Source of the DNA: Gillisia sp. Hel_I_86
GTDB taxonomy: Bacteria > Bacteroidota > Bacteroidia > Flavobacteriales > Flavobacteriaceae
DNA length: 64,000 nt
Assembly: GCF_007827275.1 (NCBI RefSeq)
Contig: NZ_VISE01000001.1
Location: forward strand, 3,658,001-3,722,000
Direction of reading: 5' to 3'
The notes under the pieces: model-generated
Databases searched by the model: none
What the model was told of the DNA's origin: nothing
What the model saw: only the letters and a program-made list of their open reading frames with translations
Translations under genes and position numbers: made by a program
Shown: positions 25,181 through 42,010 of the stretch, piece after piece
Layout: every line of letters begins with the position of its first letter
Numbering within the stretch: position 1 is the first letter of the stretch

Positions 25181-26439
25181 AGGAAAACATACAATCTTTT
25201 GGCGGAATAAATTTCGCCGATAAAATCCTACGCAACACCGGTATCCATGATCACATGGGAAAAACCCTTGGCAACAGGGGTATCACGACCACTTAAGGTT
25301 ACAGCGACCTTTTTCGCTCCTACCTCTCAATGGTGCTCTGCGGGGGGAATGTGCCGAAGACATCACCGAGCACCTAGCCAGGGAACTGTCATCTTTAAAG
25401 GGCTTCCCCGCCTTCTGCCGATACCCTGTTGCGCATGCAAAAAGAATTGGCCACCGAAAAGGAAACTTTTATTTCCAATTCGGGCACACAGCACGAGTTC
25501 AGTACCAACAAAAAGATGAACCAATTCATGCTGGGCCTGCTGTTGAAGACCGGGCAATTGTCGCCAAAGCACGATGGCCACGTTCTTGATTACGACAACC
25601 AGTTCATCCCCACCGGCAAATACGACTTGAAACGTAGCTATAAGAAAGGAGATGGCTACTTTCCCCGGATTGCGTCCATGGGAAACCTGCCCGTGTACAT
25701 CGAGGGGTGCAACGGCAATAGCAATGTTAAGTACAAACAGGACCAAACCCCGCAAAGAACCTTCGAGGTTTTAGAAGAGGGCAAGATCAAGATAGCACAC
25801 GGGCGCATGGACTGTGGCTCTTTTACCAAAGACGTTGTGTCCGTTCTGGAGGCCAACACTTCCTTTTTCTATGTGCGGGCACAACGCTGCACCAACCTGC
25901 ACGAGATCGTAGCAGGCATCCATCATTGGCAAACCCGGGAAATAGGCCATAAGGAATACCAGCTGGCCTCTATCGAATACGCCCCCTTTGGTGGGCGAAA
26001 GGCCTACCGCTATGTGATAAGCCGCGAGAAAAAGACAAACGCACAGGGCAATCTATTCACGGGCAACGACTTTACCTCCAGGGCCATGATGACCAACAAC
26101 CGGGAGATGACAGACTTGGAGGTGATCAATTTTTACAACGACAGGGGCAACAGCGAACGCTTGTTCGACGAGATGAACAATGACTTCCTTTGGAAAAAAA
26201 TGCCCTTCTCGTTCTTGCAGGAAAACACGGTGTTTTTGATCATGATGGGGATCTGCCGAAACCTGTACCACTTCCTCACCGGGTTCATCAGTAAAAAACT
26301 GGATTTTATAAAACCAAATTACCGGTTGAAGAAGTTCATCTTCCGTTTTATGGCCGTGCCTGCAAAATGGATCAAAAGGGGGCGTCAATGGATACTCAAA
26401 CCCTTCACAAACAGGGAATACCACCCCTTGCTAGAGTGA
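25181..26439 (+). pseudogene. IS1380-family transposase, frameshifted
   Basis: The intact C-terminal part (25429-26439, 336 codons) shows DDE transposase text: IAHGRMDCGSFTKDVVSVLE with the catalytic Asp, and YNDRGNSERLFDEMNNDF with the catalytic Glu region. Upstream coding text continues in pieces. QSFGGINFADKILRNTG and MGKTLGNRG are followed by a TAA at 25294, then YSDLFRSYLSMVLCGG in the same frame, then CAEDITEHLARELSSLKGF in another frame, then ADTLLRMQKEL back in the first. So there is one in-frame stop and two shifts, and the enzyme should be inactive. Confidence 0.8.
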
Positions 26440-26888: not shown

Positions 26889-29027
26889 TTATTTGGGATA
26901 ATTTTTATCATAAGGCGGCGTAAGGGCCGGTTTATCTTTCCTTGGTTTATCTTCAAGAAACACGCCTTCAAAGGTAGGTGCATTGTCCATACGATCACCT
27001 AGCATCCAATGGGTTTTCGGAATTCCATACCATTTTAATAAAGTGGCCGCGAATGAAGTGGAATCAAAAGGAATATCGCCAGCAGCCCTGAAAACTGTGT
27101 TTTTTTTAATCCAAGGGGAAACCAAGATGGCAGGGACCCTAGGTCCCAATATATCATACTTAAAACCATCTACTTTATCATTCGGCCAAGGTTTTTGAGC
27201 ATAAGGCGGACTCACATGATCATAGATTCCCCCATTTTTAGAAAAAGTGACCACTAATAAAGTATCTTCCCAGTGTGGCCCAGATTGTATGGCCTCGTAT
27301 ATTTCGTTAAGCGCTACTTCCGCTGGGATTATATCGGCTCCCGGATGATAGGAAGTTGTGCCGTTTGGTGCGATCCAGACCGGTTCTAAAAAGCTAAAAG
27401 CCGGCAGGTCTCCATTTTTTGCTTGGATTTTGAAATTTTCAACAGTATCAAGATGGTTTTTGGGATTATTGTCAATACTGGGAACCTGCCCTTCCAGATA
27501 TAAATGGTAAGTAAAGGGATAGCCATCCCATTCAATGGCATTATAAATTTTCCAATTACTTATCCCATGGCTCCATAGTACTTTCCAAATTGATTGACGA
27601 TGCGGGAATTTGGCCCAGTATGCATAAGGATTTCCACCTTCCCATGTACCTAGCCGGTTTAGCGCCGATCCTGTTACCGCAAAGGCTCGGTTAATATCGG
27701 TTCCGCCCGGTACCGAACTAAACCATTCATCGCTAATCGCATAATTTTTTGCGAGTCCGTTTAAAACAGGTACCTGTTCTGGGCTGAAGCTTAGCATTAC
27801 TTCGTGGTTGGCATTATTGCGCACAAAACCTCCCATATCTGGTGTTGCTTTACCGGGATAACCGGGTTTCCTTTCATAGAACATTTGCTCTAATCCATCT
27901 GCATTATTGTGAAAAGGATCCTGAAGTTGATCTGACAATACAATTTTGTCACTCAATTTCCCTTCATTGAACTTACTTTGGTGAACTTTTTTTTCACCAT
28001 CTAGATTATAATACTTGCTATTAGCACCGTTGAATTCCCCTTCTTTTCCAACGAAAACAATTTCATTCTGATTTTTCCCGTAAAGCCAGCCACATATATT
28101 ATCAAAAGATCGGCTTTCAACCATATAATGCACGATATGCTTTATTTTAGTGCGCATATAGCCGATACTGCCTTTTTCAGGTGGGGTTTCAGGGGATTGT
28201 GTTTTGGTTGAAAGGCTCAACAATGAAGCACTGCCCGCCATTTCTTGTGGAAGCTTTCCTTTTTTTACCAAATTATCCAAGGGTTTTTCTGAAGTAGGCT
28301 TAAAATCCCACAAGCTATAGGAAAGATCTCCAGAATGCCAGCACAGTAGCTTTCCATCAATCGCAACAATTTGATGATCTTTGGTGACCCCTTGCCATTC
28401 CCCTTTCCAAACTTCCGGGATAGAAAGTGGCGTTGGGTTTTGTGGATCAAAGCTCCAAATACGAAAAGTCCCATCGGGTAAGCGGTCCAGCACATAATTT
28501 CCTATAGGGATCAATTCATGTCCTGCCTGAATGGAAGGAAATGCTCCTTGGGAAGTATAAGGAGCAGGAAGAGGATCTGAACTTTTTGGGTTCAGAAAAT
28601 TAGGATCAAAATTGAACAGCTCATAAGTGCCACGCCCTTCCCCTCCCACAAAAAACAATAAAAAATTGCCCATTGGAATAAGGTTTACTTCCTTTTGCTC
28701 ATCTGGATTGTTGGAATAATGGTTTCTATATCCCCAGAACTTATTGATTTGCCAGGAACCTTCCTGTACAGATGTTCCCCCTAAAGGATCATTGCTCTTC
28801 ACATCAAATTCATATAAGCGGTACGGGAAAGACTTTTTCTCATTTTTAGCTTCGCTTGGTCCCCATTCCAGTATATAGCCACCAATACTAATCAAACTGT
28901 GAGAAGATTTAATTACTGCTTTGTTATCCACCGGAACCTTGGTGAATAAAATGTCTTTTTTTAGATCGAATTTCCATAACCCATACTTATCCTGGGATTG
29001 GAACCTGTTAATTAGATAAATGCCCAT
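26889..29027 (-). CDS. Phospholipase C/phosphoesterase-family protein with repeat N-terminus, probably catalytically inactive
   Basis: A 712-residue protein without a signal peptide. Residues ~1-270 hold four degenerate repeats of the form L(I)PxGxxLL...Y.L(W)xFD (for example LIPIGNYVLDRLPDGTFRIW), suggesting a beta-propeller or similar. Residues ~295-690 belong to the phosphoesterase family PF04185 (phospholipase C/AcpA). The expected ENRSFD is ESRSFDN (Glu304-Ser305), and the expected YDEHGGxYDH is FSKNGGIYDH (Ser596-Lys597), so the predicted metal ligands Asn, Asp and Glu are replaced. The fold should be kept but phosphatase/lipase activity lost. It is divergent from the glutathione/DNase II cluster and next to IS debris. 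Confidence 0.8.
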   Translation of the reverse strand: MGIYLINRFQSQDKYGLWKFDLKKDILFTKVPVDNKAVIKSSHSLISIGGYILEWGPSEAKNEKKSFPYRLYEFDVKSNDPLGGTSVQEGSWQINKFWGYRNHYSNNPDEQKEVNLIPMGNFLLFFVGGEGRGTYELFNFDPNFLNPKSSDPLPAPYTSQGAFPSIQAGHELIPIGNYVLDRLPDGTFRIWSFDPQNPTPLSIPEVWKGEWQGVTKDHQIVAIDGKLLCWHSGDLSYSLWDFKPTSEKPLDNLVKKGKLPQEMAGSASLLSLSTKTQSPETPPEKGSIGYMRTKIKHIVHYMVESRSFDNICGWLYGKNQNEIVFVGKEGEFNGANSKYYNLDGEKKVHQSKFNEGKLSDKIVLSDQLQDPFHNNADGLEQMFYERKPGYPGKATPDMGGFVRNNANHEVMLSFSPEQVPVLNGLAKNYAISDEWFSSVPGGTDINRAFAVTGSALNRLGTWEGGNPYAYWAKFPHRQSIWKVLWSHGISNWKIYNAIEWDGYPFTYHLYLEGQVPSIDNNPKNHLDTVENFKIQAKNGDLPAFSFLEPVWIAPNGTTSYHPGADIIPAEVALNEIYEAIQSGPHWEDTLLVVTFSKNGGIYDHVSPPYAQKPWPNDKVDGFKYDILGPRVPAILVSPWIKKNTVFRAAGDIPFDSTSFAATLLKWYGIPKTHWMLGDRMDNAPTFEGVFLEDKPRKDKPALTPPYDKNYPK

Positions 29028-29410
29028 ATATTAATAATGTTTTTGATATTCAGCTTACATAAATGCAAGTTCGAGGGGGGAGATACAATAAAACTCTAGT
29101 CGTGGGGATGGAGTTAGATTATGTTAAATATAATATAAACTTTTATTAATTGCCCTGATAATATTTGTTAATTAAACCCTATATTTGAATGGATTTATCT
29201 GAAGATAAGTTAATTATGAAGCCTGATCTAAAACATGAAATGGATTGGCATCCATGTAAATCTATCCCCACTTTTTTTTAGCGCTTTTAAAAAAGGCAAT
29301 TATAGCAGGCTCTTGTTTAGCTCTGCCCTTTTAGAATAGCAAAACCCCATAAATAAATTACTTGCTCATTTGTTTAAAAACATATTATAGAAAATCAATT
29401 ATTAAAGTAG
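29028..29410. other. Divergent promoter region of the accessory cluster
   Basis: No gene is seen. A TATATTTG box at 29180-29187 matches the Bacteroidetes -7 consensus on the + strand and could serve the seven-gene cluster with a ~220-base leader. No - strand box was found for the divergent gene. Confidence 0.45.
29180..29187 (+). promoter_or_regulatory. Candidate -7 box of the accessory operon
   Basis: TATATTTG is an exact TAnnTTTG match upstream of the first cluster gene. No TTG at the usual -33 spacing was found, so this is tentative. Confidence 0.4.
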
Positions 29411-30964
29411 ATGTTCAATTATTTTGGGTACGGTTCTAATATCAATTTAATTTCCCTCAATGCAAAGGGGGTTAAACCTCTATGTTCTGAAAAGGCTGTG
29501 TTAAAAGGCTGGAGATTAAAATTCAACGTAGAACACTGGTTTCGCCATGAAGGTGGGGTAGGAAATATAGAACCTGGAAATGCTGAAGATTTTGTGGAAG
29601 GCGTCCTCCATAAATGTGAAGACGAACACCTAGGGCATCTGGATTTAATGGAATCCTACGGAATAGGTTACACCCGAACTGAAGTAGAAGTAAAAACAAG
29701 CAATGCTGTTAAAAAAGCAATAACGTACATTGGCTTGGCGGATTATATAGATAACGAGTGCCTTCCCACAAGCCGGTATTTAAATATTATCATTGCCGGG
29801 GCTACAGAAGCAAAACTAAGTCCAACTTATCTTCAAAAACTGCGGTCGCAGCCTGTAAAAAGGATTGGAAATTATCCGGAATTCAGGCATCCGGCAACTA
29901 AAACTGCTGTATTTACTAAAGCCTCCCTAAATTCCAATAAAAACCTTACCGCTTTAGGTAGCGCTGTTTTTAACATGGAAAATTGCCGACCCAAATTGCG
30001 TTGTTTAATAGATTTGTTCGGCGGAAAGGATATGACCCTGTTCCATATAAAAAGGCACGATTCCAGTACTGGAAAGGAAAGCTTGGATGATTACCTCAGC
30101 GGAAATATTTCTGATGCTGCCAAAAATTACCTCAACACTTACTTGCACGAATATCAAAAAGAATTTGAATATATTGGGCGATACCTGTTCGATGAAGAAA
30201 TATCCCGCTCTACAAAAACTATTAATCAATCAATTAAATTCACAAATATGAAGAATTATCACGATGCCATGCCACATGGTGAAATCAAGGAAATATTTAA
30301 GGATGTGTTTTTTGTCTCTGGAACCATGAAAAATGAATTTTTCGGCTCTATGTGGCAATTCAGTAGAAATATGACGGTGATTCGGGAAGACGGAAAGCTA
30401 AGCCTCATTAACACAGTAAGATTAAGCGAAGAAGGCCTGGCGGCTTTAGAAAAACTTGGCAGCATTGTAAATGTGGTGAGATTAGGGGATATGCACGGTG
30501 TGGACGATCCCTTTTATCTGGACAGGTACAACACTACATATTGGACGATTCCGGGGATGCGGGTGCCAGAGGGTGTAAAACCAGACAAGGAACTAAAAGA
30601 AGATGGGGAAATGCCTTTTAACAATGCTTCTTTTTTTGAATTTAAAACCACCAAAAGACCCGAGGGCATCATACGCCTAGATCGTGAAGGTGGGATCATG
30701 ATCGCCTGCGACTCCTTACAAAACTGGACAGAACCAGACCAGTTTTTTGATAAAGGAACGGTGGAAACCATGACAAAAATGGACTTTTTTGTGCGGGCCA
30801 ACCTAGGATTGGCATGGTTACATGAAAGTGAGCCAAAGCCTGTTGATTTTGAAAATCTTAAAAAAATCCCTTTTGAACATGCATTATGTGGTCATGGGTA
30901 TCCTCTTGTAAACAATGCGGCAAAACAATACCATACCACCTTTAAACGAATGTTTAACGTTTGA
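29411..30964 (+). CDS. Gamma-glutamylcyclotransferase-metallo-beta-lactamase-like fusion
   Basis: A 517-residue two-domain protein. Residues 1-~150 are a gamma-glutamylcyclotransferase (AIG2/GGCT) fold: YFGYGSN at 4-10 and the likely catalytic Glu81 in LDLMESYGIGYTRTEV. Such enzymes release 5-oxoproline from gamma-glutamyl peptides such as glutathione. Residues ~285-517 resemble an atypical metallo-beta-lactamase-like domain (DVFFVSGTMKNEFF, VVRLGDMHGVDDPFYLDRY, LIR-type strands, ALCGHGYPLVNNA) without the HxHxDH metal motif. It is the first gene of a seven-gene run that also encodes both glutathione synthesis enzymes, and it starts 9 bases before the giant kinase/cyclase gene. The second domain assignment is tentative. 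Confidence 0.75.
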   Translation: MFNYFGYGSNINLISLNAKGVKPLCSEKAVLKGWRLKFNVEHWFRHEGGVGNIEPGNAEDFVEGVLHKCEDEHLGHLDLMESYGIGYTRTEVEVKTSNAVKKAITYIGLADYIDNECLPTSRYLNIIIAGATEAKLSPTYLQKLRSQPVKRIGNYPEFRHPATKTAVFTKASLNSNKNLTALGSAVFNMENCRPKLRCLIDLFGGKDMTLFHIKRHDSSTGKESLDDYLSGNISDAAKNYLNTYLHEYQKEFEYIGRYLFDEEISRSTKTINQSIKFTNMKNYHDAMPHGEIKEIFKDVFFVSGTMKNEFFGSMWQFSRNMTVIREDGKLSLINTVRLSEEGLAALEKLGSIVNVVRLGDMHGVDDPFYLDRYNTTYWTIPGMRVPEGVKPDKELKEDGEMPFNNASFFEFKTTKRPEGIIRLDREGGIMIACDSLQNWTEPDQFFDKGTVETMTKMDFFVRANLGLAWLHESEPKPVDFENLKKIPFEHALCGHGYPLVNNAAKQYHTTFKRMFNV

Positions 30965-30973
30965 TCTATTTAT

Positions 30974-33900
30974 ATGGAGAATGTTGCACTAAGTAAATCA
31001 TTATCAATTTCGGGATTTGTGCTGGAGCAGTTGCTTTTTGATTCCCCTCCGCACCTTATTTACAGGGCTAAAAGAAAAATGGACGATCGTGAGGTGATTA
31101 TAAAAACCCTCAAGGATAAATTCCCAACAAGGGAAAATTTGGCCAGCCTCCAAAGGGAATACAGAATTGCCTCCAAACTTGATCTTGAAGGAACCATAAC
31201 TGTTTACAGTCTTGAAAAGCTTGAAAATGGCAATCCGGCGATTGTTATGGAGCGCTTTGGGATCTCTTTATATGAATACACGAAATCTTTTGCCAATAAA
31301 ACAATTCCTGTTACAAATTTCATTTCCATTGCTATTCCCCTTGTAAAAATCCTAGGGCAAGTACACGATTATAGCGTGATTCATAAAGACATAGTTCCCA
31401 GGAATATTTTGATAGATCCAAAAACCAAAAATCTTCGCATCACAGATTTTAGTGTTTCTTCTGAATTATCACGGGAACACCAAGGGAATATTCTTTCCAA
31501 CCGGATAGAAGGCTCCCTTGCCTATATGTCCCCAGAGCAAACAGGAAGGATCAATCGGGATATCGATTATCGAACAGATTACTATTCCTTGGGGATCCTG
31601 TGCTATGAATTGTTAACTGGTCAATTGCCTTTTCAAGGTGAAGATGCACTAGAATGGGTTCACAACCATATTAGCAAACAACCCAAACAGCCACATGAAG
31701 TAAACCCAAAAATCCCCTCCCAGCTTTCAAAAATTGTATTGAAGCTCATAGCTAAAAATGCAGAAGACCGCTATCAAAGCAGTTTTGGTATTATTAGTGA
31801 TTTGGAGGAATGCAGCGAAAAAATCCATAGCGGTTTATTCGATTTCAATTTTGAATTGGGACAGAGCGATATTTCACCGCAGTTCCAGATACCACAAAAA
31901 CTTTATGGCCGTGAAAAGGAATTGGAAAAACTTTCTTCCTATTTTGAAAAGGTGCTGCTGGGGTCGTTGGAATTTTGCCTGGTTTCCGGTTATTCGGGGG
32001 TAGGGAAATCGGTTTTGGTACAGGAATTAGGACGTTCCATCGTTCAGGAAAAGGGATACCTAATTCAGGGAAAATTTGAGCAATTTAGGCAAAATGCTGC
32101 CTACACTGCGCTGGCAAATGCATTTCGGGATTTGATCAATCAAATTCTAGGGGAACCTGCAAATAGGTTACAGCATTGGAAAAAAAACCTCCTAAAAGTA
32201 CTCGGCAATAACGGACAACTAATGGTTGATCTTGTGCCGGAGCTGGAATTGATTATCGGTCCACAGAAACCGCTAGGCAAGCTTCCTCCTACCAAGGCGC
32301 AAAATCGTTTTACAATGGTTTTCACAAGTTTCCTAAAGGTATTTACCAAGAAAGAACATCCCCTAGTGATTTTTCTGGATGATTTGCAATGGAGCGATGT
32401 ACCAACCCTAAACCTTATCAGTAAATTAATGGCATTGCAGGACCTGGGCCATCTTTTCCTTATAGGGGCATACAGGGACAATGAAGTAGATACCACACAT
32501 CCGTTACTCCTTACATTAGGGGAAATAGAAAATTATAGATATGTAGAACGTATTTCACTAGCGCCATTGAAAAAAAATGCGGTTGTCCAAATTATTAAGG
32601 ACACGCTACACTGCCATGAAGAAAATTCTCGCAAGTTGGGAAAGATTTTATTCGAAAAGACAGGGGGAAATCCCTTTTTTACAATTGAATTGCTCAAAAA
32701 TTTACATGAACGAGAGGTGATTTCATTCAATTCCAGCAATGGCTGTTGGGATTGGGATATAAATAAAATAAAAGAGGTTGGCCACAGTGATAATGTGATC
32801 GATTTTCTTGTTATAGGCTTTAAAATGCTACCGGGGCTCACTCAGCAGGCACTTAAAATGGCAGCATGTATTGGTGCAAGCTTCGATTTAAAGACCTTGT
32901 CCATTATTATGGAACAATCTATGGAAACTACTGCTTCCGATCTATACGAAGCACTAAAATCAAATAGTATCGTTCCACTGGACGAATCTTATAAATTTAT
33001 AGGGATGGATTCATATTCGGTAGATCCTTCTTTCAATCTATTAGGTCCAGATAGCCTAAACCCCACGTATAAATTTCAGCATGACCGCTTGCAACAAGCA
33101 GCCTATAGCATGATTTCCTTGGATAAAAGAAAAGCAGTGCACCTTTCTATTGGCAGGTTGATTTTAAAACACAAAGGGGAAAAGGAAATTGGCGATAGCC
33201 TCCTGCAAATAGTTGACCACCTTAATGAGGGGCGGGCCCTGCTTACCACGGCGAAGGAAAAAACAAGGCTTGCCTCCCTAAACCTTGAGGCCGGGATAAA
33301 AGCTAAAAGTTCTTCAGCCTATGGGGCTTCGCTCGAATATTTAAAAGTTGGATATGAACTGCTTGATGATATTGGCTGGCACAAGAATTTTGATCTCTGC
33401 TGGAAACTCAGTCTGGAAATCCAACAGTGCTATTATTTAACCGGGGAATGGGAAATCGCCGATAAATGGATAGATTTAATGCTGAAAAATGCCAAAACCG
33501 ATCTCCAAAAAGGAACGGTACTTTCGGCAAGGACCAGACAGTATGCCACAATCGGCAAGATGAAAGAATCTATTGTTGCAGCTTATGAGGGGCTTTCTAT
33601 CCTAGGCTTTGACTTTTTGAACAATCCAACCCAAACCAATATAGAAGAAGAAGTACAGCAAATAAAAGAGCAATTAAACGGAAGGGAAATTGCCTCGCTC
33701 ACCCGCCTACCAATCATGAGCGACGAAAAAGCCAAAAATGCCAATAAGTTGCTCATGGAAATTTTTCCTGCGGCATTTTTATCGGGCAGTGGGGTGATGT
33801 TCCCATACCTTGTTCTTAAATCGGTGAATATTGCCCTAAAATTTGGCAATAGCCCGGAATCTGCGTTTGCGTATGCGGGCTACGGAATGATTTTATGTGG

Positions 33901-36367
33901 GTATTTTAATGATACCGCCAAAGGATACAGATATGGCAAACTGGGGGTGGACTTAATAGAACAATTTGAAGATATTTCGCTTAAATCCCGGGTTATGTAT
34001 GTTTACACCATGTTTGTGCACCACTGGAGCAATCACTGGTCTACCATGACCCCTTGGTTTCACAAAGGTATTGAGGCCGGGTACCAATCTGGTGACCTTC
34101 TGTATTTGGCTTACAGCGCTCAAGATTGTATTATCTGGGATCCCAAACTAGACTTGGAAACTGCTTCCCGGGAACAACGCAAGTTCTTGATGATAGTAAA
34201 GGAATGTGATTACCAGGATAGTTATGACTCTGGAACGCTTTTCCTACAGATGCAGCTTAATTTTCAAGGACTTACCAAGGAAAAATTCAGTCTTTCCAAC
34301 GAAGATTTTGATGAAACCTTCTGTGTGGAAGGAATGCTGGAACGAAAGTTTATGACGGGAATTTCAAATTATAATATTTATAAATCTGAAATTCATTTGC
34401 TTTATAACGATCCTGAAGGTGCTTATAAATATGTTCAAGAGCAGGATAAAATGATGGCTTCTGTAATGGCTTTGCCGCAAGTGGTTCGGTTTCACATAGT
34501 ATCCTTTTTGGTGCGCTCGTCCTTATATGCAAAATCTTCTGAAAAAGAAAAGGAAGTTTTAATGGCAAAGATGAAGGAAAGTTTGGCGAATATCAGTTTA
34601 TGGTCCAAACAATGCGAAGCTAATTTCGAACACCTCCGTTTACTAATGGAAGCTGAAATGGCCGGAATTTCAGGGGATTTGAATAAAACCTTACAATATT
34701 ATGAGGCCTCTATAGCAATGGCCGGAAAGCACCATTTTACCCGCGATGCAGCCATGGCAAATGAAAGGACTGCACTTCTATTGATCAATCTTGGAATTCC
34801 AAAGGCTGCCGAAGGCTATCTCCAAGCCGCCTATTATTTGTTTTACCGCTGGGGCGCCCATCGAAAAGGTTCTCAATTACTGGAAGATTACGCAGAAATT
34901 TTAAACACGGCAATTGCTGTTCCAGGAAATGCTCCCAAACGCAACCATAATGCCCCTCCCTTGAAAGCGAACAGCTTTGGTATAGAGCAAATAGATATGA
35001 AATCGGTATTTAAAGCTTCCCAGATAATTTCAGGGGAATTGGTTCTGGAAAAACTACTTGAAGCCACGCTACAGTTATTAGTTGAAAATTCCGGGGCCGG
35101 GAAAGGTATCCTACTGGAACGGCAGAACGGTAAAAATTTAGTCCTTGCCATGATTGATTTCAACAAAACAAAGAAACCAGTAAAAAACAGCCAGATCAAG
35201 GATACTGGTAACCTTGACATTCCTCATACCCTTATCAACACCGCCTTCAGAACGAATGAAAGTATTGTACTGGATAATGCTTCGGCGATAAACCCGTATT
35301 CTTCAGATCCTTATATAAAATCGGCTAAACCATTATCCATTCTATGTGTGCCATTACCTACCCGTGGAGGGCAAATATTAGCGGTATATTTGGAGAACAA
35401 CCTAACACGCAGTGTATTTACAGAAGATAGGGTGAACCTTATCAAGTTGCTTACGGGCCAGGCCAGTATTTCCATTGAGAACGCTAAAATTTATGAGGCA
35501 CAGCAAACCTTGCTTAAGGCACAGCAAAGATTTGTTCCTATTCAGTTCTTAAAGAAACTCGGGCATGAAGACATAGCCAATGTGAAGCTTGGCGAATCGG
35601 TTTCTATGGAAATGAGCGTTTTGTTCTCAGACCTTAGGGATTTTACACCCTTGGTAGAGCAATTATCACCCCAGGAAGTAATTGAATTATTGAATAAATA
35701 TTTTTCAGAAATTGGACTTTCCATAGCAGCATCGGGAGGGTTTATAGATTCTTATGCCGGGGATGAAGTAATGGCACTTTTTGCCATTCCACCGCAACAA
35801 GCAGTAAGAGCTGGTATTAAAATGTACGGGGCATTAAAAAAATTCAATAAAAATTCTGGATTAAACCTTAAAATGGGCATTGGCATGAACACGGGCCCAC
35901 TTGTGTTGGGAACCATGGGTGGTGCCGGCAGGATGCAGTGCTCGGTATTAGGGGATACCGTAAACCTGGCTTCCAGAATAGAGCAACTTACCAAGTTTTA
36001 TGGAGCACGGTTTTTAATTGGGGAAAACACCTTTCTAAATATAGATAGAAAAGAGGATTTTTCGCTTAGGCTTATAGATCGGGTAGCGGTGAAAGGAAAA
36101 GGAAAAGCAGTTAGGCTATATGAAGTTTTGGATGTTGAAAGCAAGAAGGCAAGGTTGCAAAAAGAGGCTTCTGTAAAGCCACTCGAACTCGGGATGCAGG
36201 CCTATTATAATCAAGAATTTGGAGAGGCATTTAAAATATTTAATGAGGGAAGCCTAAACAATCCAGTGGATAGGGTTTTTGCCATTTTTAAGGAGCGCTC
36301 AAATAATTACAGGAGCAATCCCCCGGGTGCCAATTGGCAGGGATTTGATATATTTACCAGTAAATAA
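30974..36367 (+). CDS. Ser/Thr kinase-AAA ATPase-GAF-class III cyclase sensor
   Basis: A 1797-residue cytoplasmic signalling protein. (a) Residues ~10-285: Ser/Thr kinase fold with Lys44, HKD at 137-139 and DFS at 158-160 in place of HRD and DFG. (b) ~300-700: AAA/STAND ATPase with Walker A GYSGVGKS (339-346) and Walker B VIFLDDLQWSD. (c) ~740-1290: helical TPR-like region. (d) ~1310-1500: GAF domain. (e) ~1535-1715: class III nucleotide cyclase with metal Asp1553 (FSDLRDF) and Asp1597 (YAGDEVM) and VLGDTVNLASR. The base-selecting Lys of adenylate cyclases appears to be Ser1593. It may sense a small ligand and make a cyclic nucleotide controlling this cluster. Confidence 0.88.
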   Translation: MENVALSKSLSISGFVLEQLLFDSPPHLIYRAKRKMDDREVIIKTLKDKFPTRENLASLQREYRIASKLDLEGTITVYSLEKLENGNPAIVMERFGISLYEYTKSFANKTIPVTNFISIAIPLVKILGQVHDYSVIHKDIVPRNILIDPKTKNLRITDFSVSSELSREHQGNILSNRIEGSLAYMSPEQTGRINRDIDYRTDYYSLGILCYELLTGQLPFQGEDALEWVHNHISKQPKQPHEVNPKIPSQLSKIVLKLIAKNAEDRYQSSFGIISDLEECSEKIHSGLFDFNFELGQSDISPQFQIPQKLYGREKELEKLSSYFEKVLLGSLEFCLVSGYSGVGKSVLVQELGRSIVQEKGYLIQGKFEQFRQNAAYTALANAFRDLINQILGEPANRLQHWKKNLLKVLGNNGQLMVDLVPELELIIGPQKPLGKLPPTKAQNRFTMVFTSFLKVFTKKEHPLVIFLDDLQWSDVPTLNLISKLMALQDLGHLFLIGAYRDNEVDTTHPLLLTLGEIENYRYVERISLAPLKKNAVVQIIKDTLHCHEENSRKLGKILFEKTGGNPFFTIELLKNLHEREVISFNSSNGCWDWDINKIKEVGHSDNVIDFLVIGFKMLPGLTQQALKMAACIGASFDLKTLSIIMEQSMETTASDLYEALKSNSIVPLDESYKFIGMDSYSVDPSFNLLGPDSLNPTYKFQHDRLQQAAYSMISLDKRKAVHLSIGRLILKHKGEKEIGDSLLQIVDHLNEGRALLTTAKEKTRLASLNLEAGIKAKSSSAYGASLEYLKVGYELLDDIGWHKNFDLCWKLSLEIQQCYYLTGEWEIADKWIDLMLKNAKTDLQKGTVLSARTRQYATIGKMKESIVAAYEGLSILGFDFLNNPTQTNIEEEVQQIKEQLNGREIASLTRLPIMSDEKAKNANKLLMEIFPAAFLSGSGVMFPYLVLKSVNIALKFGNSPESAFAYAGYGMILCGYFNDTAKGYRYGKLGVDLIEQFEDISLKSRVMYVYTMFVHHWSNHWSTMTPWFHKGIEAGYQSGDLLYLAYSAQDCIIWDPKLDLETASREQRKFLMIVKECDYQDSYDSGTLFLQMQLNFQGLTKEKFSLSNEDFDETFCVEGMLERKFMTGISNYNIYKSEIHLLYNDPEGAYKYVQEQDKMMASVMALPQVVRFHIVSFLVRSSLYAKSSEKEKEVLMAKMKESLANISLWSKQCEANFEHLRLLMEAEMAGISGDLNKTLQYYEASIAMAGKHHFTRDAAMANERTALLLINLGIPKAAEGYLQAAYYLFYRWGAHRKGSQLLEDYAEILNTAIAVPGNAPKRNHNAPPLKANSFGIEQIDMKSVFKASQIISGELVLEKLLEATLQLLVENSGAGKGILLERQNGKNLVLAMIDFNKTKKPVKNSQIKDTGNLDIPHTLINTAFRTNESIVLDNASAINPYSSDPYIKSAKPLSILCVPLPTRGGQILAVYLENNLTRSVFTEDRVNLIKLLTGQASISIENAKIYEAQQTLLKAQQRFVPIQFLKKLGHEDIANVKLGESVSMEMSVLFSDLRDFTPLVEQLSPQEVIELLNKYFSEIGLSIAASGGFIDSYAGDEVMALFAIPPQQAVRAGIKMYGALKKFNKNSGLNLKMGIGMNTGPLVLGTMGGAGRMQCSVLGDTVNLASRIEQLTKFYGARFLIGENTFLNIDRKEDFSLRLIDRVAVKGKGKAVRLYEVLDVESKKARLQKEASVKPLELGMQAYYNQEFGEAFKIFNEGSLNNPVDRVFAIFKERSNNYRSNPPGANWQGFDIFTSK

Positions 36368-36489
36368 CTGAAATTCAACTAATAAAAATATTTTGCGCCT
36401 TCTTTTTCATACCTTAAGGCGGCGCTTTAAATACAAAAAGTTCCAACTCCCCTCCCCCACAACGATTTTAATTCTAATCCGTCTTTAAT

Positions 36490-37446
36490 ATGAATTCAGT
36501 GAGAATAGGTTTTGTGATAGACCCTATTGCGTTTATAAATCCAAAAAAAGATACAAGCCTAGCAATTATGTTAGAAGCCCAGGCCAGGGGATGGACTGTT
36601 TTTTATATGGAACTGAAGCATCTGTATCTGGAAGATGGGAATGCAAAAGCCATAATGCATGCGATTAGCCTAAGTGATGATCCTAAAAACTGGTTTAAAA
36701 TAACCGGAACCGAAACTGGAAACCTGGGCACATTAGACCTTTTGTTCATGCGAAAAGACCCGCCTTTTGATACCGAATATATCATTGCCACCTATATTCT
36801 GGAAAAAGCTGAAGAACAGGGCGCCATGGTCATTAACAAACCGCAGGGGTTAAGGGATGCCAACGAAAAAATATTTACTTCTTGGTTTCCCCAATGCTGT
36901 CCACCAGCACTTCTAACCCGGTCTGGGGACGCAATCAGGGATTTTTTAAAAAAACACCAAAAAATTGTAATAAAACCCACAGGTAAAATGGGTGGTAAAT
37001 CCATCTTCGTTTTGATGAATGGTGATCCCAATGTGAATGTGATTATAGAAGAAGTTTCTAAAAACGGCAAAGAATATGTACAGGTCCAGAAGTATATCCC
37101 AGAAATTTCCAAAACCGGGGATAAAAGGATTTTATTGATAAATGGGATACCAGTGGAATATGGCCTTGCCAGGTTTCCTTCAAAAAATGATCACCGTGGA
37201 AATTTAGCTGCCGGAGCTACCGGAAAAGGATTTGAATTATCCAAGAATGACCGGTGGATCTGTTCGCAAATCGCACCTAGCCTAGTAAAAAAAGGACTCC
37301 TGTTCGTGGGCATCGATGTGATTGGGGATTATTTAACCGAAATTAACGTGACCAGTCCCACCTGCATTCGGGAAATAGATAAGGAATTCGATATAAATAT
37401 CGCTTCCCGCCTATTGGACCTTTTACATAAAAACTCAAGTAAATGA
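36490..37446 (+). CDS. gshB: Glutathione synthetase
   Basis: A 318-residue ATP-grasp enzyme of the bacterial GshB family, which joins gamma-glutamylcysteine and glycine. Visible family text: KKDTSLAIMLEAQARGWTVF (N-terminal substrate domain), FMRKDPPFDTEYI, KPTGKMGGKSIF (ATP loop; usual text KPLDGMGGxSIF), GDKRILLINGIPV, HRGNLAAGATG and EINVTSPTCIREI (metal ligands). All key segments are present at normal length. It overlaps the DNase II-like gene by 4 bases (ATGA). Glutathione genes are not universal in Flavobacteria, so its place in this accessory cluster is noteworthy. Confidence 0.92.
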   Translation: MNSVRIGFVIDPIAFINPKKDTSLAIMLEAQARGWTVFYMELKHLYLEDGNAKAIMHAISLSDDPKNWFKITGTETGNLGTLDLLFMRKDPPFDTEYIIATYILEKAEEQGAMVINKPQGLRDANEKIFTSWFPQCCPPALLTRSGDAIRDFLKKHQKIVIKPTGKMGGKSIFVLMNGDPNVNVIIEEVSKNGKEYVQVQKYIPEISKTGDKRILLINGIPVEYGLARFPSKNDHRGNLAAGATGKGFELSKNDRWICSQIAPSLVKKGLLFVGIDVIGDYLTEINVTSPTCIREIDKEFDINIASRLLDLLHKNSSK

Positions 37447-38513
37447 TAGCACCGCTAAACAATCAAGAAAACAAACCCATCGACTGGTGGTTTATATATA
37501 AACTGCCTATGAATACAGGGCCGAAAAAAGATACTACTGGTTTCGAGTTTTTGTACTGTGATTCAACTTCCAAACAGGGGCTTTCTCTGTCGCCGGTTTC
37601 TTTGGACCACGAACAATCTGCCCTGGCACTCACCTTAAATCAAATATTTTCAGGGGAACCAGATGTAGGCTATGTACTTTGGAATGACGAAATTCCACCT
37701 ACTGCATCGGTTATAAAACCCAAAAACAATGAAGGAAAAGGACATAGCAAAGGGGTTTTAGCATTTTCCAAAAAAAACAATTGCGGGTTTTATTTACTTC
37801 ATTCCACTCCCAGATTTCCTGCGGAAGGGATTGTAGAATTACCAGAAGATGAAAAAAGGTTTGGACAAACCTATATATGCTTTTCACTTAAAGATTACGC
37901 TGAAGCGAATAAACTTGCAAGCGTGCTTTTGCTGCAAAATGAAGCTCAGGTGTATGCAAAGCATTTGCCCGAAGTTGGAACTGAAGAAGCAATCTTTAAA
38001 CTGGCCAATAACAATAAGTTTGAAACCCCAGTAGCTCCTTCGATATTAAATTTGAAAACAATTAGTGGTTTTGAATTTACCCATATTGCTAAAAACAAAC
38101 ATTGGAGCGAACCTGTGAAACCTGCAACCATAGGAAAGGATTTTTGGAAAGACCTGGTAGGCCCAAGCCTGAAATGCAATCTGGATGTTGAGACCTGGAG
38201 GCGCGGACTGGTATTTGGGGATATAGATCCAGACAAAAAAGAAAATACCAAAGATGATGTGGATATAGATTTGACCATAATTGGCTTACCGGGCTATAAC
38301 TGGGCCTACACCAAAGATCACGCTAAATGGGGAATATCTGTAAAAATTGAAGAATCCCATATCATTGTTTCTGACCTTAACCGCCAGCTCAGCCAATGCA
38401 AGCGTGGCGGTGGCGCGGTGGTTTTTAACCATCCTGGCTTATGGAAATCATTAGACGCTATTCAGGTTACAGAAAAGAATCTTGAAACCAATCCTCATAT
38501 AGACAAATCTTAA
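37443..38513 (+). CDS. DNase II-family protein
   Basis: A 356-residue homologue of the acid endonuclease DNase II of animals. Family text: DWWFIYKLPMNTG near the N-terminus, the first HxK motif H101-S-K103 in GHSKGVLAF, the conserved HSTPRFP (His120), FGQTYICFS, the second HxK motif H293-A-K295 in DHAKWGISV, and CKRGGGAVVFN. All predicted catalytic and conserved residues are kept. The animal enzymes cut double-stranded DNA without metal at acid pH and are secreted; this protein has no signal peptide. It may have another phosphodiesterase substrate. It is coupled by a 4-base overlap to gshB and lies 6 bases before the glutamate-cysteine ligase gene. Confidence 0.82.
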   Translation: MIAPLNNQENKPIDWWFIYKLPMNTGPKKDTTGFEFLYCDSTSKQGLSLSPVSLDHEQSALALTLNQIFSGEPDVGYVLWNDEIPPTASVIKPKNNEGKGHSKGVLAFSKKNNCGFYLLHSTPRFPAEGIVELPEDEKRFGQTYICFSLKDYAEANKLASVLLLQNEAQVYAKHLPEVGTEEAIFKLANNNKFETPVAPSILNLKTISGFEFTHIAKNKHWSEPVKPATIGKDFWKDLVGPSLKCNLDVETWRRGLVFGDIDPDKKENTKDDVDIDLTIIGLPGYNWAYTKDHAKWGISVKIEESHIIVSDLNRQLSQCKRGGGAVVFNHPGLWKSLDAIQVTEKNLETNPHIDKS

Positions 38514-38519
38514 AGGAGG

Positions 38520-39896
38520 ATGATGACCGTAAAACCACTAACCCGGGATGTATGTAGAAAATATTTGGAAGGCCTCATTTTTGGCTCTTCCAGTTTTCCA
38601 AACCCTGAAATCCCGGGAAAAAAAATTGGACTAATGGGAATAGAACTGGAGGTCTTTCCATATAAAATTTCCAATGGGAAAATTAAGGGGGTTAAGTGTG
38701 AAGGGGATAAGGATAATCTTAGGAATATTCTTATAAAAGTTTCAGAAGAATTTGGCGGCAATGCAATTTATGAAGATGAGGAGAAGGAAAACCATCTGCT
38801 TAAAAAAATTGAATTTCCCAATGGCGATAATTTTCAATTTGAGCCGGGATGCCAGATTGAGATATGTATCAATCCCTGCAAAAACCTTAGTGAGCTAGAG
38901 TCTAGGATTATTTTCCTACAATCCCTTCTATTAAAAATAACCAGCGAATATGGAATTCATTTTGCCCAACATGGAACCAATCCCTGGTTTGGGACCGAGG
39001 AAATAGGATTACAAATTCCTAAGCAACGGTACCTGAATTTGCAAAACTATCTTGATAAAATTAGTCCGTTTGGTAGAAAGATGATGCGTTTAACAGGCTC
39101 ACTACAAGTTAACCTGGATTTAGGCCGGGACGAAGAAACCCGCATAAAACGGATTGTCACGGCAAACCTGCTAAGCCCTATCGCAACCGCTATTTTTTCA
39201 AACTCCCCTATTACTGCGGGTAAGAAAAATGGCTTTAAATCATTTCGAAGTTATATTTGGCAACAACTCGACCCTAAAAGGACAGGTCTCCTTCCCTTGG
39301 AAGGAGTTATTAAATCTTGGAAAAAAGAAGAAGTTGTAGAAGCATATTTAAATTTCTCACTTAACGCACCGCTAATTTATGTACAGAAAAAACCTGAAAT
39401 CAGCTTAGCTTCAGAATATACTTTTAACTACTGGTTGGATCATCCAATACATAATCATGTCCCGGATATTACCGATTTCGATAATCATTTGTCTTTGCTT
39501 TTTCCGGAAGTACGTTTAAGGAAGTATCTGGAAATTCGTTCTGTGGATGCACCTCCAAAAGAGTGGCAAATGATTCCTGTATATTTTTACACAGGGCTTT
39601 TATATAACAATTCGCACCTGGATAAAACACTCGATTTATTAATTCCGAAGCAAAGAATAATTGAAAAACTGCTGGTAGAATCTGCAAGCGGATTTAAAAA
39701 TGATAATTTATACCTTCTTGCAAAAGAAATAATGCAGCTGGCTATTGAAGCGTTTTCAGGATTACCTCCAAATTTTAAATATGAAAATCAGGTTGAAATA
39801 ATGATTTCCTTCTATAAAAAATATACCTCCAAAAGAAGATGTTTTGCAGACGATTCCATTCAGTTGTTTAATAAAAATAATAAGCTAACTTATTGA
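38520..39896 (+). CDS. gshA: Glutamate-cysteine ligase, GCS2 family
   Basis: A 458-residue ligase of the GCS2 (plant/alphaproteobacterial GshA and EgtA) group, which makes gamma-glutamylcysteine. Motifs: MGIELEVFPY, FEPGCQIEICINPCKNL (usual FEPGGQIELS), MMRLTGSLQVNLDLG (usual TCTVQVNLD) and RKYLEIRSVDAPP. The Cys in place of Gly in FEPGGQ and Ser-Leu instead of Cys-Thr/Ser in the VQVNLD segment could alter substrate preference, so another amine acceptor is possible. A good AAAGGAGG ribosome site precedes the tandem ATGATG start. Together with gshB it completes a glutathione pathway. Confidence 0.85.
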   Translation: MMTVKPLTRDVCRKYLEGLIFGSSSFPNPEIPGKKIGLMGIELEVFPYKISNGKIKGVKCEGDKDNLRNILIKVSEEFGGNAIYEDEEKENHLLKKIEFPNGDNFQFEPGCQIEICINPCKNLSELESRIIFLQSLLLKITSEYGIHFAQHGTNPWFGTEEIGLQIPKQRYLNLQNYLDKISPFGRKMMRLTGSLQVNLDLGRDEETRIKRIVTANLLSPIATAIFSNSPITAGKKNGFKSFRSYIWQQLDPKRTGLLPLEGVIKSWKKEEVVEAYLNFSLNAPLIYVQKKPEISLASEYTFNYWLDHPIHNHVPDITDFDNHLSLLFPEVRLRKYLEIRSVDAPPKEWQMIPVYFYTGLLYNNSHLDKTLDLLIPKQRIIEKLLVESASGFKNDNLYLLAKEIMQLAIEAFSGLPPNFKYENQVEIMISFYKKYTSKRRCFADDSIQLFNKNNKLTY

Positions 39897-39948
39897 TTTA
39901 AAGCGCTATATTGTATATCGCTTACTTTTTAACTTTAAAATACTTTCA

Positions 39949-40701
39949 ATGGATCAAAATACCCTTTTACAAAAAGTTTTGGACAACGTAAAATCTTCAA
40001 AGAAACTGCCCATAGTGGTTTTTGATCTAGATGATACCTTGTTTTCCACAGCCCGAAGAAATTTAACCATAATTCAGAATTTTAGCTGTGATCAGGGAGG
40101 GGCATATCCAGATTTTGCGCAGATCGCTTCCAAATTAAAACTTGAAGATATGAACTGGAGCGTTACCACGGCTCTGGAAAAAGCGGGTTTATCTTCCACT
40201 AGTGCATCCATAAAACCTTTTATAGGGTACTGGGGTTCCACCTTTTTTACGAATGGGTATGATGCGTTGGACCTTCCAAATCCGGGAGCCGTAGATTTTG
40301 CAAATGCCTGCCATGATGCAGGTGCGCTCTTATATTACCTTACCGGGAGGGCGGTTGGGGATCGCGGTTTAAATAACGGCATGGGTCAGGGCACCACCCT
40401 TGCATTAACCAATCGCGGATTCCCATTTTGGCGGGGACGTTGTGAACTAAACCTCAAAACAAATCCAAAAGAGCAGGATTTCGAATACAAGGCCCGAGCC
40501 TTGACCGATATAAAATCATTACAAGGAAATGTAGTGGCTACTTTTGATAATGAACCTTCCAACTGCGCCATGTTTTACCAGCATTTCCCAGATGCACTTA
40601 ACTTTTGGGTAAAAACCACCTGGAACCCACTGGACAAATCCCCTACCGATACGCTCTACACAATTTCTGATTTTTCACGAACCACAAAACAAAAACAATA
40701 A
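39949..40701 (+). CDS. HAD-superfamily hydrolase
   Basis: A 250-residue protein with all four haloacid dehalogenase motifs: I, VFDLDDTLF with nucleophile Asp26 and Asp28; II, YYLTGR with Thr132; III, Lys181 in FEYKARAL; IV, ATFDNEPSN with Asp200. The long segment between motifs I and II (~100 residues) forms a cap. DNEP in motif IV is typical of acid-phosphatase-like HADs. Substrate unknown. It lies one base before the next gene and 52 bases after gshA, so it belongs to the same operon. Confidence 0.83.
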   Translation: MDQNTLLQKVLDNVKSSKKLPIVVFDLDDTLFSTARRNLTIIQNFSCDQGGAYPDFAQIASKLKLEDMNWSVTTALEKAGLSSTSASIKPFIGYWGSTFFTNGYDALDLPNPGAVDFANACHDAGALLYYLTGRAVGDRGLNNGMGQGTTLALTNRGFPFWRGRCELNLKTNPKEQDFEYKARALTDIKSLQGNVVATFDNEPSNCAMFYQHFPDALNFWVKTTWNPLDKSPTDTLYTISDFSRTTKQKQ

Positions 40702-40702
40702 A

Positions 40703-42010
40703 ATGGCTTCAATAGAATATACTTTGGGTTTTGCAAAACAGTTGGGAGAATTATTCCCACCTGCAAAATATGCAAATGCAAATTTGAATTTTAAAACTTT
40801 AGAAGATGTAATTGAACATTACACTAAAAATTCACTTGCTGCAGATGGGATCGCGGCATCTAAAGTGGAGGTAACACTTAAAGAAAACCAGTATAAAATT
40901 CATATTGATGGCGCAGCCGAAAATGAGGTGCTTCAAAAATTTTCTGAAAGGCATATCCAAGTATTCAGTAAAGATTATGCGCAAAAAGCCGTCCGAGGAA
41001 TGGAGCTTTTAAAAGAAATGGGGGTTTGGAACCCTATGGAAGGGTATCATGTAAACCGAAACCCTGGCGATGGGGAATCTAAATGGAAGTTGTTTCCACC
41101 TTTAGGCCTGAATATTATCGGTCAAAAAGGAATGCTTTTGATGCATTACCCGCCTTGGGCAGTATTGCAGGCTGGAACTTTTGATAATGCGATGACGATG
41201 CAGCGCTGGAGCAGGATTTTAAGTCACGCTGGTGTAGATAAAAAAGACTTGGGAAAGTATAAAACCTTTATCGATGTGAATCCTATCGCGGCTCCAGGTT
41301 CTGGGGAAAGTGAGTATCCCAATGATTATTTCCCAATCATGATGGCTTCCGGATTTTTTGACGGCCCTCAGGATCGGGATTATATCAAATCCATGCTGGA
41401 ACTTTTTCTAAATCCGCCAGACCTTTCGAGCAATAGCAAGCATACATTGCCCTTATTAATTTGTGGTTCGCCACTCTACGATCCGCAAGCGCCGGGCTGG
41501 TTTAAGGTAGCTTATAAAGATATCCTTCCCCAGGATGAAAATGGAATTCCGCAGGTAAATGTATTGCAGGTTGGGAAATTTAAAATCAGGCCCAATTCTA
41601 AAAAAGAAACACCCTACCTAATTGGAAACCATATGATAGCTGCTGGGGTAACAGGTAGATGTACCAAGGATCCTTCCAAAATTCCAGATATGAGGCAATA
41701 TGAAGCGCAAGACCTGGTAGCTGCAACCTTTTTAAAGCTCTATGCAGATACCCCAGATTTAGATCCTAAAACAGCCAAAGAACGAGCCTGTATGCGCTGG
41801 TTTGGAAATAAAGCAGGAGAAGGAGCACCGCAACCAAAAGATAAGACCGATGCCGAGACTATTTGCGCCCTAGCACAAATGGACTTGTTTTTTGATCCCA
41901 CGCCAATACCCCATCCTAAATACACATTTGAAGAAGCTGTAAAACGTTGTAAAGAAGCAAGCCAGAAAAACAATCCCTGTGCAGATAATATCAAACCCGC
42001 AAATCGGTAG
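40703..42010 (+). CDS. Uncharacterised protein of the glutathione/DNase II cluster
   Basis: A 435-residue soluble protein that I do not recognise. It has no signal peptide or membrane helix. Distinctive segments are GLNIIGQKGMLLMHYPPWAV, FIDVNPIAAPGSGESEYPND, PLLICGSPLYDPQAPGWF and NHMIAAGVTGRCT. Several conserved-looking His, Cys and acidic residues suggest an enzyme. The last ~60 residues (TAKERACMRWFG onwards) contain three Cys. It starts one base after the HAD gene and is the last gene of the run. No function is proposed. Confidence 0.75.
   Translation: MASIEYTLGFAKQLGELFPPAKYANANLNFKTLEDVIEHYTKNSLAADGIAASKVEVTLKENQYKIHIDGAAENEVLQKFSERHIQVFSKDYAQKAVRGMELLKEMGVWNPMEGYHVNRNPGDGESKWKLFPPLGLNIIGQKGMLLMHYPPWAVLQAGTFDNAMTMQRWSRILSHAGVDKKDLGKYKTFIDVNPIAAPGSGESEYPNDYFPIMMASGFFDGPQDRDYIKSMLELFLNPPDLSSNSKHTLPLLICGSPLYDPQAPGWFKVAYKDILPQDENGIPQVNVLQVGKFKIRPNSKKETPYLIGNHMIAAGVTGRCTKDPSKIPDMRQYEAQDLVAATFLKLYADTPDLDPKTAKERACMRWFGNKAGEGAPQPKDKTDAETICALAQMDLFFDPTPIPHPKYTFEEAVKRCKEASQKNNPCADNIKPANR

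Follow-up and report, generated by a model that had tools for sequence, protein, structure and literature searches.

Do eight adjoining genes of Gillisia sp. Hel_I_86, among them genes for glutathione synthesis, a large sensor and a DNase II, belong to a single system, and what might that system do? The genes lie in a 64,000 nt stretch of contig NZ_VISE01000001.1 (assembly GCF_007827275.1, positions 3,658,001 to 3,722,000), referred to here as the window, and the genome is a single contig of 4.2 Mb. The original prediction, made from the letters of this stretch, was that they form one system. The eight open reading frames, their strands and their spacing are exactly as it gave them (Table 1), with gaps of 9, 122, -4, 6, 52 and 1 bases between the seven + strand genes. 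The PLC-like gene is also present as described, but it is divergent from the operon formed by the others and does not face it. We refer to the block as the module and to its last protein, which belongs to no named family, as U435.

Table 1. Genes and domains of the module in the window, and the neighbouring transposase remnant
Feature	Position	Strand	Basis or remark
PLC-like protein	26889-29027	-	ORF list; PF04185
GGCT-MBLx fusion gene	29411-30964	+	ORF list; PF13772/PF06094
GGCT domain, fusion residues 1-265	29411-30205	+	YGSN loop, Glu81 kept
MBLx (metallo-beta-lactamase-fold domain), fusion residues 277-517	30239-30964	+	Separate gene in relatives
Sensor, 1797 aa	30974-36367	+	Pkinase + AAA_16 + GAF + Guanylate_cyc
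GshB glutathione synthase	36490-37446	+	NF003573, TIGR01380
DNase II, optional part	37443-38513	+	PF03265, E 4e-71
GCS2-type glutamate-cysteine ligase	38520-39896	+	PF04107, E 9e-39
HAD-like protein, acid phosphatase-like, optional part	39949-40701	+	PF03767, E 1.5e-4, below cut-off
U435, 435 aa, no named family	40703-42010	+	UDG-like fold ~84-353; Cys 320, 388, 416 and 426 invariant
Partial DDE transposase, outside module, left border	25429-26439	+	PF13701, profile positions 221-412 of 435

Recurrence and mobility of the gene set

That the block is a real, recurrent single system is strongly supported. A scan of 84,980 species genomes for U435, using six exact peptide patterns from one query, recovered at least 16 loci, a lower bound, in Bacteroidota, Alphaproteobacteria, Gammaproteobacteria and Gemmatimonadota. 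Two further loci were found among 395 sampled Bacteroidota genomes, bringing the number of systems to 19, namely that of the window and 18 relatives. The core consists of the PLC-like protein, GGCT, MBLx, the sensor and U435. At >80 % coverage, U435 and the sensor were found in all 19 systems, GGCT and MBLx in 18 and the PLC-like protein in 17. Locus L007 is cut by the end of the fetched flank, which places its PLC-like and GGCT genes outside the data, and in L006 the PLC gene is split between contigs. GshB and GCS2 are inside the module in 15/19 systems, and DNase II and the HAD-like protein are found in an identical six of the 19.

A search with MBLx alone returned the same three of the 395 Bacteroidota genomes as U435, including that of the window (Fisher p 1e-7). 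The PLC-like gene had a strong match in all 18 U435 genomes searched (that of L007 was excluded), with two copies in one genome and a copy split over contigs in another; in G398, the complete gene has a small contig of its own, and the locus itself contains only a fragment. In Proteobacteria, gene order and orientation differ, and the five core genes are still together. When the fetched flanks were clustered against each other, no non-module cluster was common to more than four systems, the widest including common ABC ATPases; the Pfam scan of the flanks covered ten flank or outlying proteins. For GshB, GCS2, GGCT and MBLx, pairwise identities correlate with those of the sensor (r 0.94-0.96, host phylogeny not corrected for). 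Thus, the view of these genes as one system holds, as most of the set is found again in 18 other genomes, among which few flanking genes are shared, and the co-occurrence search suggested with the original prediction found the core genes repeatedly together elsewhere. Among the papers listed, titles and the opening lines of abstracts revealed no description of the gene set, nor was a function assigned to it.

The module is horizontally mobile and moves between genomic sites. Within the genus, two of 16 genomes contain U435. Next to the module in the window are a short DEAD-box gene and an ABC operon of the phosphate type. None of eight congener regions around the DEAD gene contains a module gene, and five of the eight keep the DEAD and transporter genes. 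One of these eight congeners (G701) does carry the module, at 513 kb, with its DEAD gene at 2.23 Mb on the same contig. The G+C content of the module is 40.0 %, versus 36.4 and 36.8 % in the flanks. Mobility had originally been suggested by insertion sequence debris at the left border. This debris is present, as a truncated DDE transposase that matches only the second half of PF13701 and lies 450 bp to the left of the module, but the different genomic location in the congener is the better evidence. No U435 match was found in 72,556 plasmid records. In a sample of 289 Alphaproteobacteria, U435 was found in the sample's centre genome only, and G452 has a distant relative that begins with a signal-peptide-like stretch.

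Promoter and terminator scans gave no more candidates than shuffled sequences, and no conserved promoter motif was found between the PLC-like and GGCT genes in the five systems compared. A glycine-rich, repeat-like protein of ~575-590 aa adjoins GGCT-MBLx in the Ruegeria and Winogradskyella loci (L015:18382-20109, L033:14530-16296); the former has no Pfam match.

Proteins of the module

The GshB of the window passes both equivalog cut-offs, with 415 bits against NF003573 (cut-off 272) and 406 against TIGR01380 (cut-off 299). The GCS2 protein scores 134 bits against PF04107 (cut-off 21) and is below the equivalog cut-offs for plant GCL (167.8 of 463 bits) and EgtA (157.9 of 370.8 bits). The module copy is the best GshB match in all 14 non-proteobacterial genomes searched. 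In the four proteobacterial genomes, whose modules are without GshB and GCS2, the best match is on another contig. Three of these four also encode a strong unlinked GCS2-type ligase, and the fourth encodes an unlinked PF04262-type GshA (E 3e-168), the only such match among 18 genomes. As the ligase genes are missing from the module where the host encodes the pathway elsewhere, the module may consume glutathione, and a dependence on glutathione is suggested. The central place originally given to a gamma-glutamyl thiol is supported by this pattern. Two findings weigh against a strict form of this dependence. Three flavobacterial genomes encode a further GshB-like protein, which in the window genome and in Winogradskyella belongs to NF009110 (that of Winogradskyella also passes the NF003573 cut-off), and one Bacteroides control genome matches PF04262. 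The NF009110 gene of the window genome (L103:1602-5427) lies between genes for a 621-aa protein and a protein that by eye looks desuccinylase-like. A complete-genome survey reports gshA-B from Cyanobacteria and Proteobacteria, from eukaryotes and from a single actinobacterium, and bacillithiol genes from Bacteroidetes (PMC6282198).

The GGCT domain of the window aligns with human GGCT (E 1e-13). Its YGSN loop and Glu81, which we take to be the catalytic residue, are invariant in 14/14 aligned rows. The GGCT fusion originally described is present in the window, but its C-terminal half is a distinct gene of ~238 aa in 17/17 other systems where both were seen. This half, MBLx, has a metallo-beta-lactamase fold, which had been overlooked, as had the uracil-DNA glycosylase (UDG)-like fold of U435. 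The HxHxDH metal motif is absent from MBLx and G[DG][ML]HGxDDxFY is in its place in 15/15 rows. No Pfam match was found at E 10, and a PDB sequence search gave no result.

The sensor comprises a protein kinase, an AAA_16 ATPase, a TPR-like region (a weak match to TPR_CHK1), a GAF domain and a class III cyclase. In the active-site survey, Walker A and B and both metal-binding Asp residues of the cyclase were kept in 19/19 systems. The kinase catalytic Asp is kept in 13/19, with Glu in its place in one of the other six, and the DFG Asp in 16/19. The three alphaproteobacterial sensors (L015, L016 and L018) have a degenerate kinase without either Asp, a different linker and a different, canonical-looking cyclase domain (IDKF/YTIIG). 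At what we take to be the cyclase substrate positions, IDSY is found in 16 systems and IDKF in three. From these residues, cyclic-nucleotide output would be what selection keeps, and kinase activity may be dispensable in some lineages.

The PLC-like protein of the window has an N-terminal region of ~290 aa, with W-FD repeats that look propeller-like by eye, followed by the PF04185 phosphoesterase domain. The catalytic residues of NPC4 are given in PMC9837106 as E23, N24, H79, T158, H264, D299 and E300. Mapped by eye, four of the seven are kept (E304, H373, T443 and H561), and S305, S596 and K597 replace N24, D299 and E300. Two classes are found among the module PLC-like proteins, eight with EN and DE and nine, including that of the window, with ES and SK; none is mixed. 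This count excludes L046 and L027 (cut before the second motif), the fragments L009 and L010 and a non-module protein in G202. Winogradskyella has one protein of each class. The conservation of the SK class looks like repurposing rather than decay. The label 'pseudoenzyme' in the original prediction suits the window protein but covers only one of the two classes.

U435 has a UDG-like alpha/beta fold at residues ~84-353. Searches of Pfam, NCBIfam, PADLOC and the PDB sequences gave no match to it; at E 10, neither it nor three paralogues matched Pfam. With hhalign, the probabilities against 27 PF03167 proteins (those of 30 fetched that contained UDG motif strings) were 0.1-0.2, and those against unrelated controls 0.1-0.7. 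Foldseek alone gave no E below 1e-3. Four Cys (Table 1) and H310, a candidate for the motif 2 His, are invariant in 17/17 rows, and HPS is found in the three paralogues. The Cys residues are in positions other than those of the family 4 UDG Cys. The shorter relatives with the HPS motif are at L026:7129-8151 (-), L017:5472-6575 (-) and L031:1156-2226 (+). Two are inside a module, beside GGCT or the sensor, and the third is from a genome of the alphaproteobacterial-class sample and has a signal-peptide-like start.

The DNase II of the window keeps His101 and His293, which we take to be active-site residues and which are invariant in six aligned rows. It aligns with 5i3e/5unb at E 5e-59 over 334 residues, and shares 53-79 % identity with the four other module copies aligned and 37 % with a non-module copy in G202. 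In G202, a member of the window's family, DNase II adjoins a different PF04185-like phosphoesterase (508 aa), and no other part of the module is present (L029:7418-10036). A reading with DNase II as a necessary or central part is unsupported and was rejected, as it and the HAD-like protein are optional (6/19 systems) and DNase II is also encoded apart from the module. The G194 gene (L025:11833-12903) contains one in-frame TAG stop, and the neighbouring HAD, GCS2 and U435 genes are open. A crude scan revealed no long hydrophobic stretch in the module proteins of the window, nor a hydrophobic leader in DNase II.

Possible function

The evidence for core membership is good; the substrate and the purpose are inferred. 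Our tentative preference, which we put somewhat short of an even chance, is that the module is a self-contained, mobile, cytosolic system that detects a cue and uses up glutathione in acting on a particular substrate. The AAA/TPR/GAF part of the sensor would bind a stress ligand or damaged molecule and the cyclase would make a cyclic nucleotide, with the kinase domain as a scaffold in several lineages. Glutathione would be made by GCS2 and GshB, and GGCT and the lactamase-fold protein would process it or a conjugate formed with it. U435 and the phosphoesterase may act on a nucleotide- or nucleic-acid-like partner, and DNase II and the HAD phosphatase would have been added in one branch. The module would most likely serve to respond when nucleotides or nucleic acids suffer electrophile or redox damage. 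A more specific version, which we consider very doubtful, has U435 as a UDG-fold enzyme without the usual motif 1 chemistry but with an added four-Cys site, using glutathione, which the module would supply where the host lacks it, to remove or trap electrophile-modified bases in nucleotides or nucleic acid. GGCT and MBLx would recycle the glutathione adduct, and control would lie with the cyclase sensor, whose kinase-GAF layout is that of fungal stress sensors. The module would then be a mobile, thiol-dependent kit for base repair or nucleotide sanitation.

Anti-phage defence is unlikely. Here, the AAA/TPR sensor would detect infection, the cyclase would signal, and U435, DNase II and the phosphoesterase would attack phage nucleic acid, with glutathione auxiliary. 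The patchy, mobile distribution (two of 16 congeners, three of 395 Bacteroidota) and the optional DNase II with both active-site His are consistent with this. However, to our knowledge, no known defence system employs glutathione synthesis or GGCT, and DNase II is absent from 13/19 systems. The lack of a U435 match in plasmids also argues against defence, as do the PADLOC results. The sensor matched 41 families, all kinase or cyclase domain matches among the 25 listed (e.g. PycC, E 5e-18), and the other seven module proteins had no match; no recognised effector or system set was found, Pycsar included, in a scan that did not extend to defence genes in the flanks. The fold of U435 points the other way, being like that of Brig1, a phage-defence glycosylase of the UDG superfamily, whose best structural match is also a Sulfolobus tokodaii UDG (PMC11078745).

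A small-molecule pathway is unlikely. Glutathione would supply the sulfur of a metabolite that is secreted or acts as a signal, GGCT and MBLx would trim the conjugate, and U435 and the phosphoesterase would build or modify a nucleoside-like part. The combination of ligase genes and gamma-glutamyl removal fits such a pathway, and fungal gliotoxin clusters pair glutathione with a GGCT. A metabolic enzyme is encoded beside three modules: a PLP decarboxylase in Winogradskyella, an aminotransferase between U435 and the sensor in a gammaproteobacterium and an FAD monooxygenase in Planktomarina. However, these neighbours are not shared, in keeping with the limited reach of the flank clusters.

That the glutathione genes are passengers is quite improbable. 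The core, which would act on another gamma-glutamyl compound, with GCS2 and GshB added in the bacteroidotal branch, does stand without the two ligases in 4/19 systems, and GGCT-family enzymes take several substrates. Yet those four genomes encode glutathione synthesis elsewhere, and the gemmatimonadal module, which is differently arranged, contains GshB and GCS2 as well. A chance neighbourhood of unrelated accessory genes, in line with the partial transposase and the differing flanks, has a negligible likelihood and is refuted by the conserved sets, as the core is kept across phyla despite different flanks and orders and two rare genes co-occur perfectly in 395 genomes.

The module is a rare multi-gene system, with a core kept together in three phyla, that couples glutathione genes to a cyclase sensor and includes two core families with no counterpart in Pfam. 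It can bring its own glutathione synthesis into lineages for which the survey reports bacillithiol genes instead (PMC6282198). The defined gene set allows a mobile thiol pathway, a cyclase sensor and a UDG-like protein to be tested jointly, and the phosphoesterase, in which two catalytic motifs have changed together, offers a clear example of an enzyme that may have been repurposed.

Relation to known systems

Several parts of the module resemble characterized proteins. U435 has no sequence-profile link to the UDG superfamily (family 4, UdgX and Brig1). Motif 1 is not recognisable, and U435 differs further in its extra N- and C-terminal parts and four invariant Cys. MBLx differs from the 2p97 (AVA_3068) metallo-hydrolase and from GloB glyoxalase II in the absence of HxHxDH. 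The PLC-like protein of the window shares PF04185, the nucleophile Thr and two His with NPC4 (8hav), but has the S, S and K changes and an extra N-terminal region, and no hydrophobic leader was seen in the crude scan. The active-site His are common to DNase II and its bacterial counterpart (5i3e/5unb), but the module copy is embedded among glutathione and cyclase genes.

The sensor scores 111.6 bits against the TOMM kinase/cyclase fusion family TIGR03903, with the best stretch over the AAA region, far under the cut-off of 705.75; TOMM biosynthesis genes were not searched for. An N-terminal Ser/Thr kinase with GAF is likewise found in cyanobacterial HstK and fungal Mak2, Mak3 and Chk1, according to PMC5383687. 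The same text reports oxidative stress signalling for fission yeast Mak2 and Mak3, although the double mutant is not peroxide-sensitive, and Anabaena HstK is linked to nitrogen source in PMC2176072. The output of these proteins is a histidine kinase, whereas that of the module sensor is a class III cyclase, with the kinase Asp lost in 6/19 systems.

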